This document shows, piece by piece, positions 45,855-52,266 of a DNA stretch of 64,000 nt. The translations under genes were made by a program, and so were the position numbers. The notes beneath the pieces are model-generated. The model was not told where the DNA came from. It did not search any database and saw only the letters and a program-made list of their open reading frames with translations. The stretch is from Methylophilus rhizosphaerae (GTDB lineage Bacteria; Pseudomonadota; Gammaproteobacteria; Burkholderiales; Methylophilaceae), in NCBI RefSeq assembly GCF_900100975.1, contig NZ_FNFX01000003.1:248001-312000 (forward strand). The letters are read 5' to 3'. How positions within the stretch are numbered: the stretch's first letter is position 1; the number at the start of each line of letters is the position of its first letter.

Positions 45855-46809
<955 letters not shown>

Positions 46810-46992: not shown

Positions 46993-48564
46993 TCAGGCGA
47001 GTGGTTTTGCGAATACCTTGGACTTGCGCTGGAAGTTATACAGTTGCTGCTTTTCCTGTGGTAACTGGTCCACATTCTGTTCGGTGAAGCCGCGCTCCAG
47101 GAACCAGTGTTCGGTGCGCGTCGTCAGGCAGAACAGCCGTTTGTAGCCCATGGCTTTTGCCTGCTCCTGGCAATAATTGAACAGCTTGTCACCGCGTCCG
47201 CCACCGCGATAGGCCGGGTCTATCGCCAGGCAGGCAAATTCCACCATTTTGTCGCCGGCAAACGGGTAAAGCGCGGCACAGCCAATGACGCGGTTATCGT
47301 GTTCCATGACATAGAAATAGTTGATTTCCATTTCGATGCGTTCGCGCCCGCGCCGTACCAGGATGCCTTCATTTTCCAGCGGCTCTATCAGCATCAGGAT
47401 GCCGCCGACATCATCGATATTGGCCTGGCGCATGGTTTCCAGCGGCAACTCGGTAATCATGGTGCCTATGCCTTGCAGCGTGAACAGCTCCTGGATAATG
47501 GCGCCATCAATATGCCTGGAAATTAAATGGGTCCGCGCTACGCCATGTTCGCAGGCGCGTACGGCGGCGGGCAGGTAATAATTCACATCTTCGGAGAAGT
47601 GGATGGGCTCATCGCTTTCCTGCACGTTACGCAGCAGGTTTTTGGCTTTGGCCGAGGTCATCTCGCGCAATAGCTCACCACGCAGGTTATGCACGCCTTC
47701 CGAACCCATGAGGAAAATCAGTTTTTCTGCATCCAGCGCAATGGCGGCACTGACCGCGACATCTTCCAATGTCAGGTTGAAGATTTCGCCGGTCGGCGAA
47801 TAGCCCATGGGCGACAGCAGCACTAACTCGCCATCATCCAGCCGCTTCTGGATGCCAATGGCATCAATCTTGCGCACTTCACCGGTGTGTTGCAGATCAA
47901 CCCCATCGCGTACGCCCAGGGGTTTTGCCGTGACAAAGTTGCCGCTGGCCACCCGGATATCGCTGCCTGCCATGGGCGAATTGGCAATGCCCATGGAGAG
48001 CAGTGACTCAATTTCGACCCGGACGGTGCCATTGGCTTCTTTCACGGCTTCCATCGCCGTGTCATCAGTGATGCGCAAGCCATTGTGCATTTTTGGCACC
48101 AGGTGATCGCGTTTTAACCGCTGCTCGATTTGCGGACGGGCACCATGTACCAGTACCAGGCGGACTTCCAGGCTGGCCAGCAGGTTCAGGTCATGCGATA
48201 ACGCGACGAATTGCTGTTCACTGACCACTTCCCCGCCAAACGCAATCACGAAAGTACTGCCACCGAACGCATGGATATAGGGCGCGGCAGAGCGGAACCA
48301 GTGCACGAATTCTTTGCTGTTGGCTTTGGAAATAATGGCCGGTGGCGTGTTGGTCAGGTTGCTGGGGGGGAGATCGGCATCATACAAACGTCCTGGCGTT
48401 GTACTTAGTGCTTGGGCGGTGGCACGTAGCAGTGTTTCGGAAATGCCTATTTCTCCCCGCTCAATCCTGGAGAGGTTACTGGTATCCGTGCCTATGCGAG
48501 CGGCCAGTTGTTGCAGGGTTAAATTTTGCGATTTACGCAAATTTCTTATATTTGAGCCGATCAT
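46993..48564 (-). CDS. argA: N-acetylglutamate synthase ArgA fused to an N-terminal XRE helix-turn-helix
   Basis: ArgA acetylates glutamate with acetyl-CoA, the first and regulated step of arginine synthesis. The 523-residue protein has three parts: residues 1-62, an XRE DNA-binding domain (NIRNLRKSQNLTLQQLAARI, then DTSNLSRIERGEIGISETLL); about 85-330, an amino-acid-kinase-like domain with EFVHWFRSAAPYIHAF, GGEVV, VLVHGARPQIE; and about 370-520, a GNAT domain (IDPAYRGGGRG, LTTRTEHWFLERGF, LYNFQRKSKV). E. coli-type ArgA has about 440 residues and no XRE domain. The frame is continuous with no Met in the linker (near residue 75), so this is one polypeptide. No clear Shine-Dalgarno precedes the ATG. 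Upstream of argB on the same strand. Confidence 0.92.
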   Translation of the reverse strand: MIGSNIRNLRKSQNLTLQQLAARIGTDTSNLSRIERGEIGISETLLRATAQALSTTPGRLYDADLPPSNLTNTPPAIISKANSKEFVHWFRSAAPYIHAFGGSTFVIAFGGEVVSEQQFVALSHDLNLLASLEVRLVLVHGARPQIEQRLKRDHLVPKMHNGLRITDDTAMEAVKEANGTVRVEIESLLSMGIANSPMAGSDIRVASGNFVTAKPLGVRDGVDLQHTGEVRKIDAIGIQKRLDDGELVLLSPMGYSPTGEIFNLTLEDVAVSAAIALDAEKLIFLMGSEGVHNLRGELLREMTSAKAKNLLRNVQESDEPIHFSEDVNYYLPAAVRACEHGVARTHLISRHIDGAIIQELFTLQGIGTMITELPLETMRQANIDDVGGILMLIEPLENEGILVRRGRERIEMEINYFYVMEHDNRVIGCAALYPFAGDKMVEFACLAIDPAYRGGGRGDKLFNYCQEQAKAMGYKRLFCLTTRTEHWFLERGFTEQNVDQLPQEKQQLYNFQRKSKVFAKPLA

Positions 48565-48626
48565 TTAATTATTTATCAGTTTATTTCGCAAAATAATAAA
48601 TCATTTTATATTTAATGTGCAAATTA

Positions 48627-48678: not shown

Positions 48679-49851
48679 TCAGTGGGCAGAAGTTGGGCGT
48701 ATTGAACGATAAAGACGGTTGCTCTGCCGTTTGCTCAGTACGACTTGCCATAACTGGCCTTGCCGCGAGCGGAAGTAGCCGGCACAACACATCAGGTAAT
48801 AGCGCCACATACGGTAAAAACTTTCATCGTATTTGAACTGCAGTTCTGGCCAGGCGCGGTTGAATTTATCCCACCAGGCCATGAGTGTTCGGTCATAATC
48901 CGGACCGAAATTATGCCAGTCTTCAATCAGGAATTTTTTCTCAATGGCGTGGGTAATCTCATTTGCGGAAGGCAGTTTGCCATTGGGGAAAATATAGCGG
49001 TCTATCCAGGCATCGGTATACAGCGCGGTTTTGTGGTTGCCTATGGTGTGCAGTAAAAACAGGCCGTTATCCTTGAGCAGGCGGTGGGCGGTTTCAAAAT
49101 ACACCGGGTAATTTTTCGGGCCAACATGCTCGAACATGCCGACCGAGACAATCTTGTCGAACTTACCCTGCAGTTCGCGATAATCCATCAGCTGGATATC
49201 GACAGAAAGACCGGCACAGCGCTCCCTGGCCAGGGCCTGTTGCTCCACGGAGACGGTAATGCCGACAACCTCAACCTGGTAGTGTTGTGCCATGTATTTC
49301 GCCAGCCCGCCCCAGCCACAGCCGATTTCCAGCACACGTTCACCGGGCCGCAGATCCAGTTTGCGGCAGATCATCTCCAGTTTGGCTTGCTGCGCTTCTT
49401 CCAGGGTACGGGCATGTTCCCAGTAAGCACACGAATAACTCATGCTGGAATCCAGCATGGCTTCGAACACGTCATTGCCGATGTCGTAATGCTGTTGTGC
49501 GACCTGGTAGGCGCGTTTTTTTGTTTGCAGATTGAACAGGGCATGGCGCAGGACATCGCCAAGTAATTGCAGTTTGCCCCAGCCACCGAGTTGTTCGTCG
49601 ATATCGGCCCGCATGACGCGGTGGAAAAATTCGTCCAGCCTGTTGCAGTCCCAGCGGCCTTCTATGTAAGCCTGCCCGAATCCGAGCGTGCCACGGGTCA
49701 AGACGTCGCGGTAGACGCTTTCGTCGTACACCTGTACATCCCATGGTGCATCGCCGTTAATGGTAATGCCGGTGGTGGCGAGCAGCCTGACCAGGGTTTC
49801 CGGCGGTGCCGGCGGGTGCTCCGCGTAATGATTGATGGTAGTTTTTGGCAT
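48679..49851 (-). CDS. cfa: Cyclopropane-fatty-acyl-phospholipid synthase
   Basis: Cfa methylenates the double bond of unsaturated fatty acids in membrane phospholipids using SAM, usually on entry to stationary phase. The 390-residue protein has the N-terminal lipid-binding region (LGFGQAYIEGRWDCNRLDEF), the SAM motif VLEIGCGWGGLAKYMA, QQHYDIGNDVFEAMLDSSMSYSCAYW, VGMFEHVGPKNY and a C-terminal YLMCCAGYFRSRQGQLWQ. The ATG at 49851 is preferred, with GGAGGA about 12 bases upstream; the frame is open to a GTG at 49887. Confidence 0.95.
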   Translation of the reverse strand: MPKTTINHYAEHPPAPPETLVRLLATTGITINGDAPWDVQVYDESVYRDVLTRGTLGFGQAYIEGRWDCNRLDEFFHRVMRADIDEQLGGWGKLQLLGDVLRHALFNLQTKKRAYQVAQQHYDIGNDVFEAMLDSSMSYSCAYWEHARTLEEAQQAKLEMICRKLDLRPGERVLEIGCGWGGLAKYMAQHYQVEVVGITVSVEQQALARERCAGLSVDIQLMDYRELQGKFDKIVSVGMFEHVGPKNYPVYFETAHRLLKDNGLFLLHTIGNHKTALYTDAWIDRYIFPNGKLPSANEITHAIEKKFLIEDWHNFGPDYDRTLMAWWDKFNRAWPELQFKYDESFYRMWRYYLMCCAGYFRSRQGQLWQVVLSKRQSNRLYRSIRPTSAH

Positions 49852-49995
49852 CGCGGGTAAGACTCCTCCAAAACGCATACAGATCACAAAGGATTAGCCA
49901 TGTTAAAGGCAATGGCCAATGACTGAACTCTTATCATATAACAGATATCAGCGTTGACCAAAGGTTCCGGACGCTGGTGGCGCGCGGCGGCCTTT

Positions 49996-50925
49996 TTAGC
50001 GGGAGAGTATCTGGAGCCAGGCTGGCAGGGTGGCGATACTCAACAGGGTGGTAGAGAAAACCGCCGCTGCGTAGAGTGCGCCATCCAGCTGGTAGCGTTC
50101 GCAGATGATAACGCCAAATACCATGGTTGGCATGGCGCTTAACAACGTCACTGCCGTCAGCGTGTGGCCACCTAGCCCCAATCCTTGTGCCACCATCATG
50201 GCGACAAGAGGCGCCAGCAGTAAGCCTATGATGCATACCGGTAGCAGGGTAGGTAGTAACGCCAGCTTAAAGGTATCCCAGCGTATGCTCATGCCTAATG
50301 CAATCAGCATCAACGGTACCACGCCACCTGCCAGGGTATGCAGTGCATGGCCTATCATTTCGGGCTGCGGTACCTGTGCCAGGTTGAGGATGCAGGCAAT
50401 CACGAGTGCCCACAGTGGTGGCACGCGTACCAGCTCACGCCATGGATTTAAACGCTTTTCGTTTTGACCATAAGCCTGGGCCATCAGCATGCCCAGCGAT
50501 AATAAAACGGGTGTACAGGCGAACAAGTCGAACTTCAGTACCATTTCCTGCGCCCAGTCGCCGAGCACTTCGCTGGTGACCGGCAGGCCCAGATAGGTAG
50601 CATTGGGAAAGGTGGCCGCCAGCATCAGTGCGCCCTGTTGCGCGCGTGAGAGGAGCAGGAAGCGCTTGAGAACCTGCAGGACTAGCCACATCAGCAACGC
50701 TGCCGTGGCCAGCCTGGAAAGGGCAGTCAGCTGGATACTGAAGGTATCCGCATCCAGGGGTGCCTGCCAGAGAATATTGACGACCATGGCCGGTAGCAGC
50801 AGATAAAACACCAGGTCGGTGAGTGCCTTGCGGTGTGAAAGTGCCGGCATATGGCCGGGCGCCAGGCGCTGCCAGAGAATGCCGGCGGCGATCAGCAGCG
50901 CCATTTGTAACATCACTTCAATCAT
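49996..50925 (-). CDS. AEC-family membrane transporter
   Basis: A 309-residue inner-membrane protein with about ten hydrophobic helices in two similar halves, resembling the auxin efflux carrier (AEC) family, which in bacteria includes malonate and other small-acid transporters. Features include the FPNATYLGLPV segment (Asn-x-x-x-x-Gly-x-Pro) after the third or fourth helix and the pseudo-repeat MPTMVFGVIICERY in the second half. The substrate is not predictable. It is 8 bases downstream of the DUF1348 gene on the same strand. Confidence 0.85.
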   Translation of the reverse strand: MIEVMLQMALLIAAGILWQRLAPGHMPALSHRKALTDLVFYLLLPAMVVNILWQAPLDADTFSIQLTALSRLATAALLMWLVLQVLKRFLLLSRAQQGALMLAATFPNATYLGLPVTSEVLGDWAQEMVLKFDLFACTPVLLSLGMLMAQAYGQNEKRLNPWRELVRVPPLWALVIACILNLAQVPQPEMIGHALHTLAGGVVPLMLIALGMSIRWDTFKLALLPTLLPVCIIGLLLAPLVAMMVAQGLGLGGHTLTAVTLLSAMPTMVFGVIICERYQLDGALYAAAVFSTTLLSIATLPAWLQILSR

Positions 50926-50933
50926 GGACTGGT

Positions 50934-51401
50934 TTATAGCCCCAGGTCGGTCAGGCCAGGATGGTCATCCGGGCGCCTGCCCAGTGGCCAGAAAAACTTG
51001 CGGTCAGCTTCACTGATCGGTAAATCGTTGATGCTGGCATGACGCCGCATCATGAGGCCGGCATCATTGAACATCCAGTTTTCATTGCCGTAGCTGCGGT
51101 ACCATTGTCCGGCATCGTCGTGCCATTCGTAGGCAAAACGCACGGCGATTTTGTTATCCAGAAATGCCCAGATTTCCTTGATCAGGCGATAATCCAGTTC
51201 CCGTACCCATTTGCGTGCCAGGAAAGCATGTACCTCCTGGCGTCCGCTTGGGAATTCGGCGCGGTTACGCCAGATGGTATCTTCGGTATATACCTGGATC
51301 ACGCGATCCGGATCGCGGCTGTTCCAGGCATCTTCTGCCATGCGTACTTTCTGTATGGCGGTTGCGAGTGTGAAAGGTGGCAACGGTGGTTTGGCTTCCA
51401 T
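50934..51401 (-). CDS. DUF1348/NTF2-like protein
   Basis: A 155-residue soluble protein of the NTF2-like fold (cone-shaped alpha/beta barrel), recognised as DUF1348 from [57 protein letters not shown] and [20 protein letters not shown]. Members are described as nuclear-transport-factor-2 family proteins without known activity. It is read leftward with the AEC transporter directly behind it. Confidence 0.88.
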
Positions 51402-51433: not shown

Positions 51434-52168
51434 TTAAAAATCGCCCCACAATGATTGCATGCTGGCGATGGCGGTGAGCGCGGCAGTTTCAGTACGCAAG
51501 ATTCTCGGGCCGAGCACGATGGATTGGAAATGGTGTTGTGTTGCGAGTTCAATCTCGCCCGGGCTTAACCCGCCTTCAGGGCCAATCAGCAAATGAATTG
51601 GGTGCTCAGGTTTGTCCAGCGTTGCCAGCCGTTTGGCACCCACCGGGTTGAGTAACAGGTTCAGGCACCCGGATACCGTGTGCTGGTTCAGCCATTGCAC
51701 CAGGGTAAGTGGGGGATGCACTTGCGGTACGATGGTACGTCCGCTTTGCTCACAGGCAGCAATCGCGACACCTTGCCAGTGCTCTACACGTTTTTCGGCA
51801 CGATCCCCGCTGAGTTTGGTCACGCAGCGCTCAGTGCTGAGCGGGTAAATTTCTGTCACTCCCAGTTCGACCGCTTTCTGGATGGTGTAATCCATGCGGT
51901 CACCGCTGGAAATACCTTGCAACAGGCGGATAACCAGGGGCGATTCATTATTCACGGCGGTGCGGCTTAATACTTTTGCATAGGTGACTTTTTTCTCGCT
52001 ATGCGTCAGCGCGCATTCGTAGTCAAAGCCATCGCCGCAAAACAAGGTCAGCGTATCTCCTGTTTTGAGGCGCATGACCCGGATGGCATGTGCAGAGGCA
52101 TTTTCGCTCAAGGCGGCCGTGTCACCGATATTGAGCTGTGCCGGGCTGTAAAATCGTAAATTACTCAT
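51434..52168 (-). CDS. rsmE: 16S rRNA m3U1498 methyltransferase RsmE
   Basis: RsmE methylates N3 of U1498 in 16S rRNA. The 244-residue SPOUT-class protein has an N-terminal PUA-like domain (RFYSPAQLNIGDTAALSE, HAIRVMRLKTGDTLTLF), QKAVELGVTEIYPLSTERCV, and the knotted SAM site LLIGPEGGLSPGEIELA with LGPRILRTETAALTAI. The ATG at 52168 gives the normal N-terminus; the frame extends to 52204. Divergent from the peroxiredoxin-like gene. Confidence 0.95.
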   Translation of the reverse strand: MSNLRFYSPAQLNIGDTAALSENASAHAIRVMRLKTGDTLTLFCGDGFDYECALTHSEKKVTYAKVLSRTAVNNESPLVIRLLQGISSGDRMDYTIQKAVELGVTEIYPLSTERCVTKLSGDRAEKRVEHWQGVAIAACEQSGRTIVPQVHPPLTLVQWLNQHTVSGCLNLLLNPVGAKRLATLDKPEHPIHLLIGPEGGLSPGEIELATQHHFQSIVLGPRILRTETAALTAIASMQSLWGDF

Positions 52169-52266
52169 GCTGGCATTGTAACCAAAATGGCCGGCGGCTG
52201 ACATTCACGCCTGTGACTTAATGGCGTACCATACTGGTTTGATGTTTATCTGCTGGAGTAAATGCA

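Follow-up and report, generated by a model that had tools for sequence, protein, structure and literature searches.

A helix-turn-helix fused to N-acetylglutamate synthase in Methylophilaceae: a candidate trigger enzyme of arginine synthesis

Can the first enzyme of arginine synthesis, when it carries a DNA-binding domain on the same chain, control transcription of its own gene? This question is raised by argA of Methylophilus rhizosphaerae, which was analysed in a 64,000-nucleotide stretch of the genome (the window) and compared with related loci. The gene forms a single frame of 523 codons, with a TAA in frame directly 5′ of the ATG at 48564, and its product joins in one chain an XRE/Cro-type helix-turn-helix (HTH), a disordered linker and a complete classical N-acetylglutamate synthase (ArgA) (Table 1). 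In Pfam, HTH_3 (PF01381) matched with an E value of 7.9e-10 and 39.1 bits against a cut-off of 23, which assigns the domain to the XRE/Cro type; Arg_repressor (PF01316) was not among the matches of the protein up to E 0.1, and the protein is not an ArgR-family member by this measure. AA_kinase matched residues 104–349 and GNAT domains matched residues 413–495. Both NCBIfam equivalog models of ArgA scored far over their cut-offs, PRK05279 over residues 80–522 (686.9 bits, cut-off 344) and TIGR01890 over residues 86–522 (578.3 bits, cut-off 202.85), and together with the amino-acid-kinase-like and GNAT domains they class the protein as a classical ArgA.

Table 1. Features of the argA locus in the window
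Feature	Position	Strand	Basis and remarks
XRE-ArgA fusion gene, 523 aa	46993..48564	-	Open frame, translation, Pfam and NCBIfam, family conservation
XRE/Cro-type helix-turn-helix, residues 3–61	48382..48558	-	PF01381 over residues 6–57; recognition helix about 28–35
Pro/Asn/Thr-rich flexible linker, residues 62–81	48322..48381	-	pLDDT < 50 over residues 64–87; most relaxed part
Synthase N-terminal helix, residues 82–97	48274..48321	-	Structure model
Amino-acid-kinase-like domain, residues about 104–371, includes K281	47452..48255	-	PF00696, alignment to 2r8v
Arginine loop ELFTLQGIGT, residues 359–368	47461..47490	-	Fits the motif in the accessible part of PMC4490483
N-acetyltransferase domain, residues about 376–521	47002..47439	-	GNAT Pfam matches, 3e0k alignment
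argB, acetylglutamate kinase	45855..46739	-	TIGR00761; 253 bp downstream of argA
Distal operator-like site TTTGCACATTAAATATA	48607..48623	-	At the distal-dyad position of relatives; left half intact, right half degenerate
Proximal operator-like site	48576..48596	-	Contains TTATTTTGCGAAATAA (48581–48596), and a TTTGCG whose distal counterpart TTTGCA lies 31 bp away
Sigma-70-like promoter TGCACA-17-TATTAT	48593..48621	-	Consensus 9/12, overlaps both sites; weak, as the region has 2 such matches and shuffles average 0.7

A structure model was built with AlphaFold2 on 26 family sequences (mean pLDDT 82.9). Its pTM was 0.62, so the placement of the domains relative to each other is uncertain. A five-helix N-terminal domain was predicted with confidence, followed by the poorly predicted linker region and the helix that opens the synthase (Table 1). 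The best solved relative by sequence was the N-acetylglutamate synthase of Neisseria gonorrhoeae (2r8v, 3d2p), and the enzyme part superposed on its arginine-bound form 3d2p with a Foldseek TM score of 0.89 by target length at 36% identity. The two proteins agree over the whole enzyme part, the arginine loop and the active-site residues; they differ in that the fusion has about 80 extra N-terminal residues carrying the XRE HTH.

From three rounds of searching, 114 Methylophilaceae loci were fetched (30 + 4 + 80), and the same in-frame fusion was found in 112; the two loci dropped had runs of N at the HTH (L114) or were broken by a stop (L133). At least 50 of the 54 HTH positions were filled in all 112 proteins, and HTH_3 was detected at E ≤ 0.01 in each of the 26 members scanned with Pfam. 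The protein was matched in 147 of 150 family genomes, mostly from residue 1–6 through the end. By record title the fusion occurs in Methylophilus, Methylotenera, Methylovorus, Methylobacillus, Ca. Methylopumilus and Novimethylophilus, and the HTH is kept even in genomes of 1.2–1.4 Mb. Median dN/dS values, taken over 15 chosen pairs, were 0.040 for the HTH (14 usable pairs), 0.121 for the linker (residues 63–83, 11 pairs) and 0.025 for the enzyme (15 pairs), indicating purifying selection on the HTH and a linker that is the most relaxed part of the protein.

These results bear on an artefact, in which a sequencing error joins two genes or the HTH is never translated. Start codons of the types ATG, GTG and TTG lie in frame at codons 1, 9, 60, 87 and 106 of the first 106, among which TTG60 or GTG87 could formally begin a shorter product, and a strong ribosome-binding sequence before the ATG was not seen in M. 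rhizosphaerae. The identical frame in 112 loci and the low dN/dS of the HTH make such an artefact practically negligible; because the HTH codons are under purifying selection, the HTH must be translated. The sequence-only reading had placed an XRE HTH and the synthase in one frame, and the open frame, the domain matches and the family loci confirm it. Of the two failures it had envisaged, a faulty assembly disagrees with the recurrence of the frame in 112 of 114 loci, and a start inside the linker is spoken against by the selection on the HTH.

The taxonomic range, for which the same reading had proposed a protein database search, was determined on genomes. An order-wide search took in 399 genomes, of which 13 were Methylophilaceae; the non-family rows among the matches listed started at query residue 48 or later. 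In a class-wide search (369 genomes), those among the matches listed began at profile position 32 or later, and the ones beginning before position 47 contained stops. The fusion appears confined to Methylophilaceae, with no HTH-covering row free of stops elsewhere among the matches listed. The best 80 of 560 confirmed stretches all matched from residue 1, 2 or 6, and their titles name Methylophilaceae genera or unclassified MAGs, with a single exception. The exception (L285, JAIPCR010000004.1), a MAG titled Sulfuritalea sp., has the fusion at 67% identity and is either a mislabelled bin or a case of gene transfer.

A FastTree tree of the enzyme part, with 112 fused and 23 unfused sequences, required a single change between the two states, with support 100, and on this tree the fusion arose once. 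The 23 outgroups were the best-scoring non-family loci of the order-wide search, not a random draw, and none of these loci had a match to the XRE domain that might indicate its source. An rsmE-like gene, named after the window's copy, lies 5′ of argA and in the same orientation in 20 of the 23 outgroups, where argA has no HTH. Among 109 family loci with 600 bp or more of upstream sequence, 73 share this arrangement. The HTH was added at a junction that has itself stayed stable. In the window itself, cfa and two further frames (48679–51401) separate rsmE (51434–52204) from argA.

The regions upstream of argA in the family contain two AT-rich dyads about 30 bp apart, with a common core TTGY-N7-RCAA; they are TTTGTATTAATTACAAA-like in Methylotenera-type genomes and TTTGCATTAAACGCA-like in others. 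With at most one mismatch, TTTGYA-N5-TRCAAA was matched in 49/112 family upstreams vs 0/23 outgroups, whose gene starts were set at the first ATG candidate; the mean best mismatch was 1.9 in the family, 3.5 in shuffled sequences and 4.0 in outgroups. The core was then counted in 65 non-redundant upstreams (proteins < 90% identical, drawn from 109 regions of 100 bp or more; L096 was omitted for its uncertain start). The exact core occurred in 26/65 (outgroups 2/23, downstream control 0/64), the core within 1 mismatch in 57/65 (5/23 and 14/64), two such cores in 34/65 (0/23 and 1/64), and a pair 27–33 bp apart in 29/65 (0/23 and 0/64). In 200 first-order resamplings the corresponding means were 1.2, 16.4, 2.0 and 0.3, with maxima of 6, 26, 6 and 3, a comparison that is overstated because the motif was chosen from the same regions. 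Pair spacing peaked at 30 bp (18 pairs) and 31 bp (8 pairs). No core within 1 mismatch was present in 8 of the 65 family upstreams, and a clear pair was absent in several g16 genomes (e.g. L124, L125 and L128). Taken across relatives, the dyads have the appearance of conserved operator pairs.

In M. rhizosphaerae both dyads are degenerate, with at least 3 mismatches to TTTGYA-N5-TRCAAA, and the pair pattern failed to match upstream of argA in the window even when 1 mismatch was allowed. ATTTGCA at 48618–48624 and TTTTG at 48589–48593 are identical in all 16 loci of the window's clade (L007–L022). The inverted repeat TTATTT-N4-AAATAA (48581–48596), which had been proposed as the target, proved to be at the right place, within the proximal site; it covers only the proximal half of the arrangement, the distal site lying farther upstream. 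An inverted repeat alone in AT-rich DNA is weak evidence, and the support for an operator here comes from the relatives.

Since the promoter-like match overlaps both sites (Table 1), promoter conservation may explain part of the block identity; indeed, the invariant blocks of the window's clade coincide with its −35/−10-like pair. Carried further, this would mean that the upstream conservation is mere promoter sequence and that the HTH serves protein–protein contact or assembly. Such a reading is very unlikely, as true palindromes occur in many relatives and their spacing peaks at 30–31 bp, a regularity that promoters do not need, and the recognition-helix positions are among the best conserved of the HTH domain. 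In the 112 proteins R10, L31 and E35 are invariant, and N30, S32 and R33 are present in 110, 111 and 109, respectively. DNA binding by XRE-ArgA at the dyads is the reading that we prefer.

The enzyme part should be active and arginine-sensing, judging from its residues, which were matched to N. gonorrhoeae numbers by our reading of one pairwise alignment. Among the substrate-binding and catalytic residues described in the accessible part of PMC4490483, the counterparts R405 and E442 are present in 112/112 family proteins, R513 in 111 and S515 in 110, while T481 (111/112) occupies the place of the proposed acid Ser392. The same text gives the arginine loop as E-(L/I)-(F/M)-(T/S)-x-x-G-x-G-T, with a key lysine K201 and glutamate E270. 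The loop motif was found in 110/112 family proteins, the exceptions being L124 and L125 (Tyr for Phe), and K281 and E359 in all 112. By these residues both the catalytic site and the arginine site are those of a classical ArgA, and their retention at the arginine site makes arginine a plausible signal. Sensing of acetyl-CoA, which had also been suggested, finds nothing in its favour here except the intact active site. ArgJ is encoded in the genome, so that the acetyl group can be recycled; ArgJ carries out this recycling, and ArgA may then only top up the cycle.

No ArgR (PF01316) over the cut-off was found in 100 family genomes; the search gave two sub-threshold fragments within longer frames, and the positive control was matched in 9 of 14 known genomes. 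This lack is not special to Methylophilaceae, because the accessible part of PMC5343134 describes a wider absence, outside the gammaproteobacteria among its genomes. Single-site pattern searches were run on 15, 19 and 12 family genomes, and 14 + 12 loci were inspected rather than every match. Among the inspected matches, argA was the sole recurrent intergenic place. Site matches in the 15 genomes fell at argA in 12 and at the start of metW in 11; other recurrent extra matches lay in coding sequence, in a gene beginning MKKFPGFWNKNNEG, presumably hflK, and at the start of another gene, which we take to be of HIT type. A wider arginine regulon was considered and rejected, no arg gene except argA being among the inspected matches. 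The proposal of the sequence-only reading that the enzyme regulates itself or argB was accordingly upheld in part: self-regulation is well supported by comparison (recognition helix, dyads, position of argB and lack of ArgR), and among the inspected matches it was not extended by any other arg target.

The sites at metW raise the question of whether another protein is responsible. Searching 44 genomes with the pair pattern at 1 mismatch gave 120 forward matches vs 33 for a reversed control pattern; among the matches listed were six exact places, three of them at metW (G001, G004 and G016) and none at argA. For metW, 83 of 92 loci were anchored, of which 53 were non-redundant family ones. An exact site occurred at the metW start in 21/53 loci (synonymous-codon null mean 5.3, maximum 12 of 1000) and a pair at 30 or 42 bp in 19/53 (null mean 4.5, maximum 10), figures to be read with the facts that these dyads overlap conserved codons and are missing from several genera, and that neither ancestry nor codon bias near starts enters the null. 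The gene product matches TIGR02081 over residues 15–203 of 206, and the first dyad precedes the modelled domain. The dyads lie within the first 20 codons or so (e.g. L340, L338, L333, L328 and L149), and the residues they encode vary between genera. As a second operator or target, metW is suggestive only.

A separate regulator might bind the dyads and control argA and perhaps metW, leaving the fused HTH to some other function. It would account for the like dyads at metW in excess of the null, and one would not readily expect an arginine enzyme to act on a methionine gene. We consider a separate regulator unlikely, as the pairs are missing from the 23 unfused outgroups at a like junction and present with the fusion, the HTH belongs to a class of DNA-binding domains and has kept its recognition helix, and two gains at one node from unrelated causes are less simple. 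The dyads are better assigned to argA's own protein, because a self-standing regulator would normally have sites elsewhere and argA was the sole recurrent intergenic place inspected.

Whether control would extend to argB depends on the arrangement of the two genes. The gap between them in the window has no terminator-like site and one promoter-like site, and argB is possibly co-transcribed with argA there. Of 34 family loci with 700 bp or more of flank, 29 have argB 3′ of argA on the same strand, 19 of these at a distance of 45–75 bp. The set consists mostly of near relatives of the window, and argB does not follow argA in any of its four more distant members (L037–L040), nor in any of the 23 outgroups.

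From these comparisons, we consider it likely that XRE-ArgA is an arginine-responsive trigger enzyme that represses transcription of its own argA(-argB). The fusion protein would be an active, arginine-inhibitable synthase that also binds DNA via its XRE domain, would occupy the two dyads over its own promoter, and would repress argA, together with argB in that part of the family where argA and argB form one unit. According to the accessible part of PMC4490483, arginine shifts the N-terminal helix of the N. gonorrhoeae enzyme and widens its hexamer ring. In XRE-ArgA that helix bears the HTH, so the tethered HTH pairs of a presumed hexamer would shift with it upon arginine binding and modulate the contact with DNA, with stronger repression as the most likely outcome. 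Inhibition of the enzyme and control of transcription would then reside in a single chain, in a family in which no ArgR was found. If autoregulation is correct, arginine is somewhat favoured as the effector.

Activation in place of repression, or glutamate, acetyl-CoA or the enzyme product as the effector in place of arginine, is possible though doubtful. Such variants would fit the intact substrate-binding residues and the response of the trigger enzyme PutA to its substrate, as noted in the accessible part of PMC8249747; the sites lie over the predicted promoter, where repressor sites are usually located, and the arginine site connects to the HTH-bearing helix, which we infer to favour arginine-linked repression. 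An extension of the arginine-responsive model, in which a hexamer clamps both dyads with HTH pairs set in a ring, arginine opens or closes the clamp, and the same protein also acts at the metW start, coupling arginine to methionine synthesis at their acetyl-CoA-using entry steps, seems rather unlikely.

Trigger enzymes as such are already known; the paired dyads upstream of a fused argA are new here. The accessible part of PMC8249747 lists BirA, NadR, PepA, PutA and PyrH as trigger enzymes of E. coli, with PutA binding its own putA-putP region. Like these, XRE-ArgA would unite a metabolic enzyme and a transcription regulator in one protein, its regulatory part being deduced from sequence, whereas the enzymes and pathways are different ones. 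NadR also carries an XRE-type HTH. BzdR, a regulator without its old enzyme activity, likewise combines an XRE HTH with a domain that is or once was an enzyme. In BzdR the XRE domain is joined to a shikimate-kinase-like domain (accessible part of PMC3602430), and the fused HTH of XRE-ArgA showed a weak NCBIfam match to PRK08154; the enzyme fold differs, and the catalytic residues are kept in XRE-ArgA. The likely physiological role of XRE-ArgA would be that of ArgR, the control of arginine genes in connection with arginine, carried out by an unrelated domain. An N-acetylglutamate synthase with an HTH was not found described in titles and abstract starts of the open-licence PMC literature, and in the review PMC4490483 neither an HTH nor a DNA role of the synthase occurs as a term. 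If correct, the model places a further trigger enzyme at the first step of arginine synthesis and offers a way in which arginine genes may be controlled across a methylotroph family in which ArgR was not found, including its streamlined genomes. With a single placeable fusion event and a presumed operator, the locus would be a clear instance of an enzyme that acquired a DNA-binding domain and remained an enzyme.

Two minor observations concern the sites. Residue 39 of XRE-ArgA, just past the recognition helix, is Leu mostly with TTGT-type and Gln mostly with TTGC-type sites, and ranked second of 523 positions by mutual information with operator type (92 labelled rows, 20 mixed or unlabelled ones omitted); co-evolution was not retained, as independent pairs on the tree were 2 concordant, 0 discordant and 3 unchanged, which is not significant. 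In L098, L099, L139, L140 and L141, a third similar dyad is located about 90–95 bp 5′ of argA.
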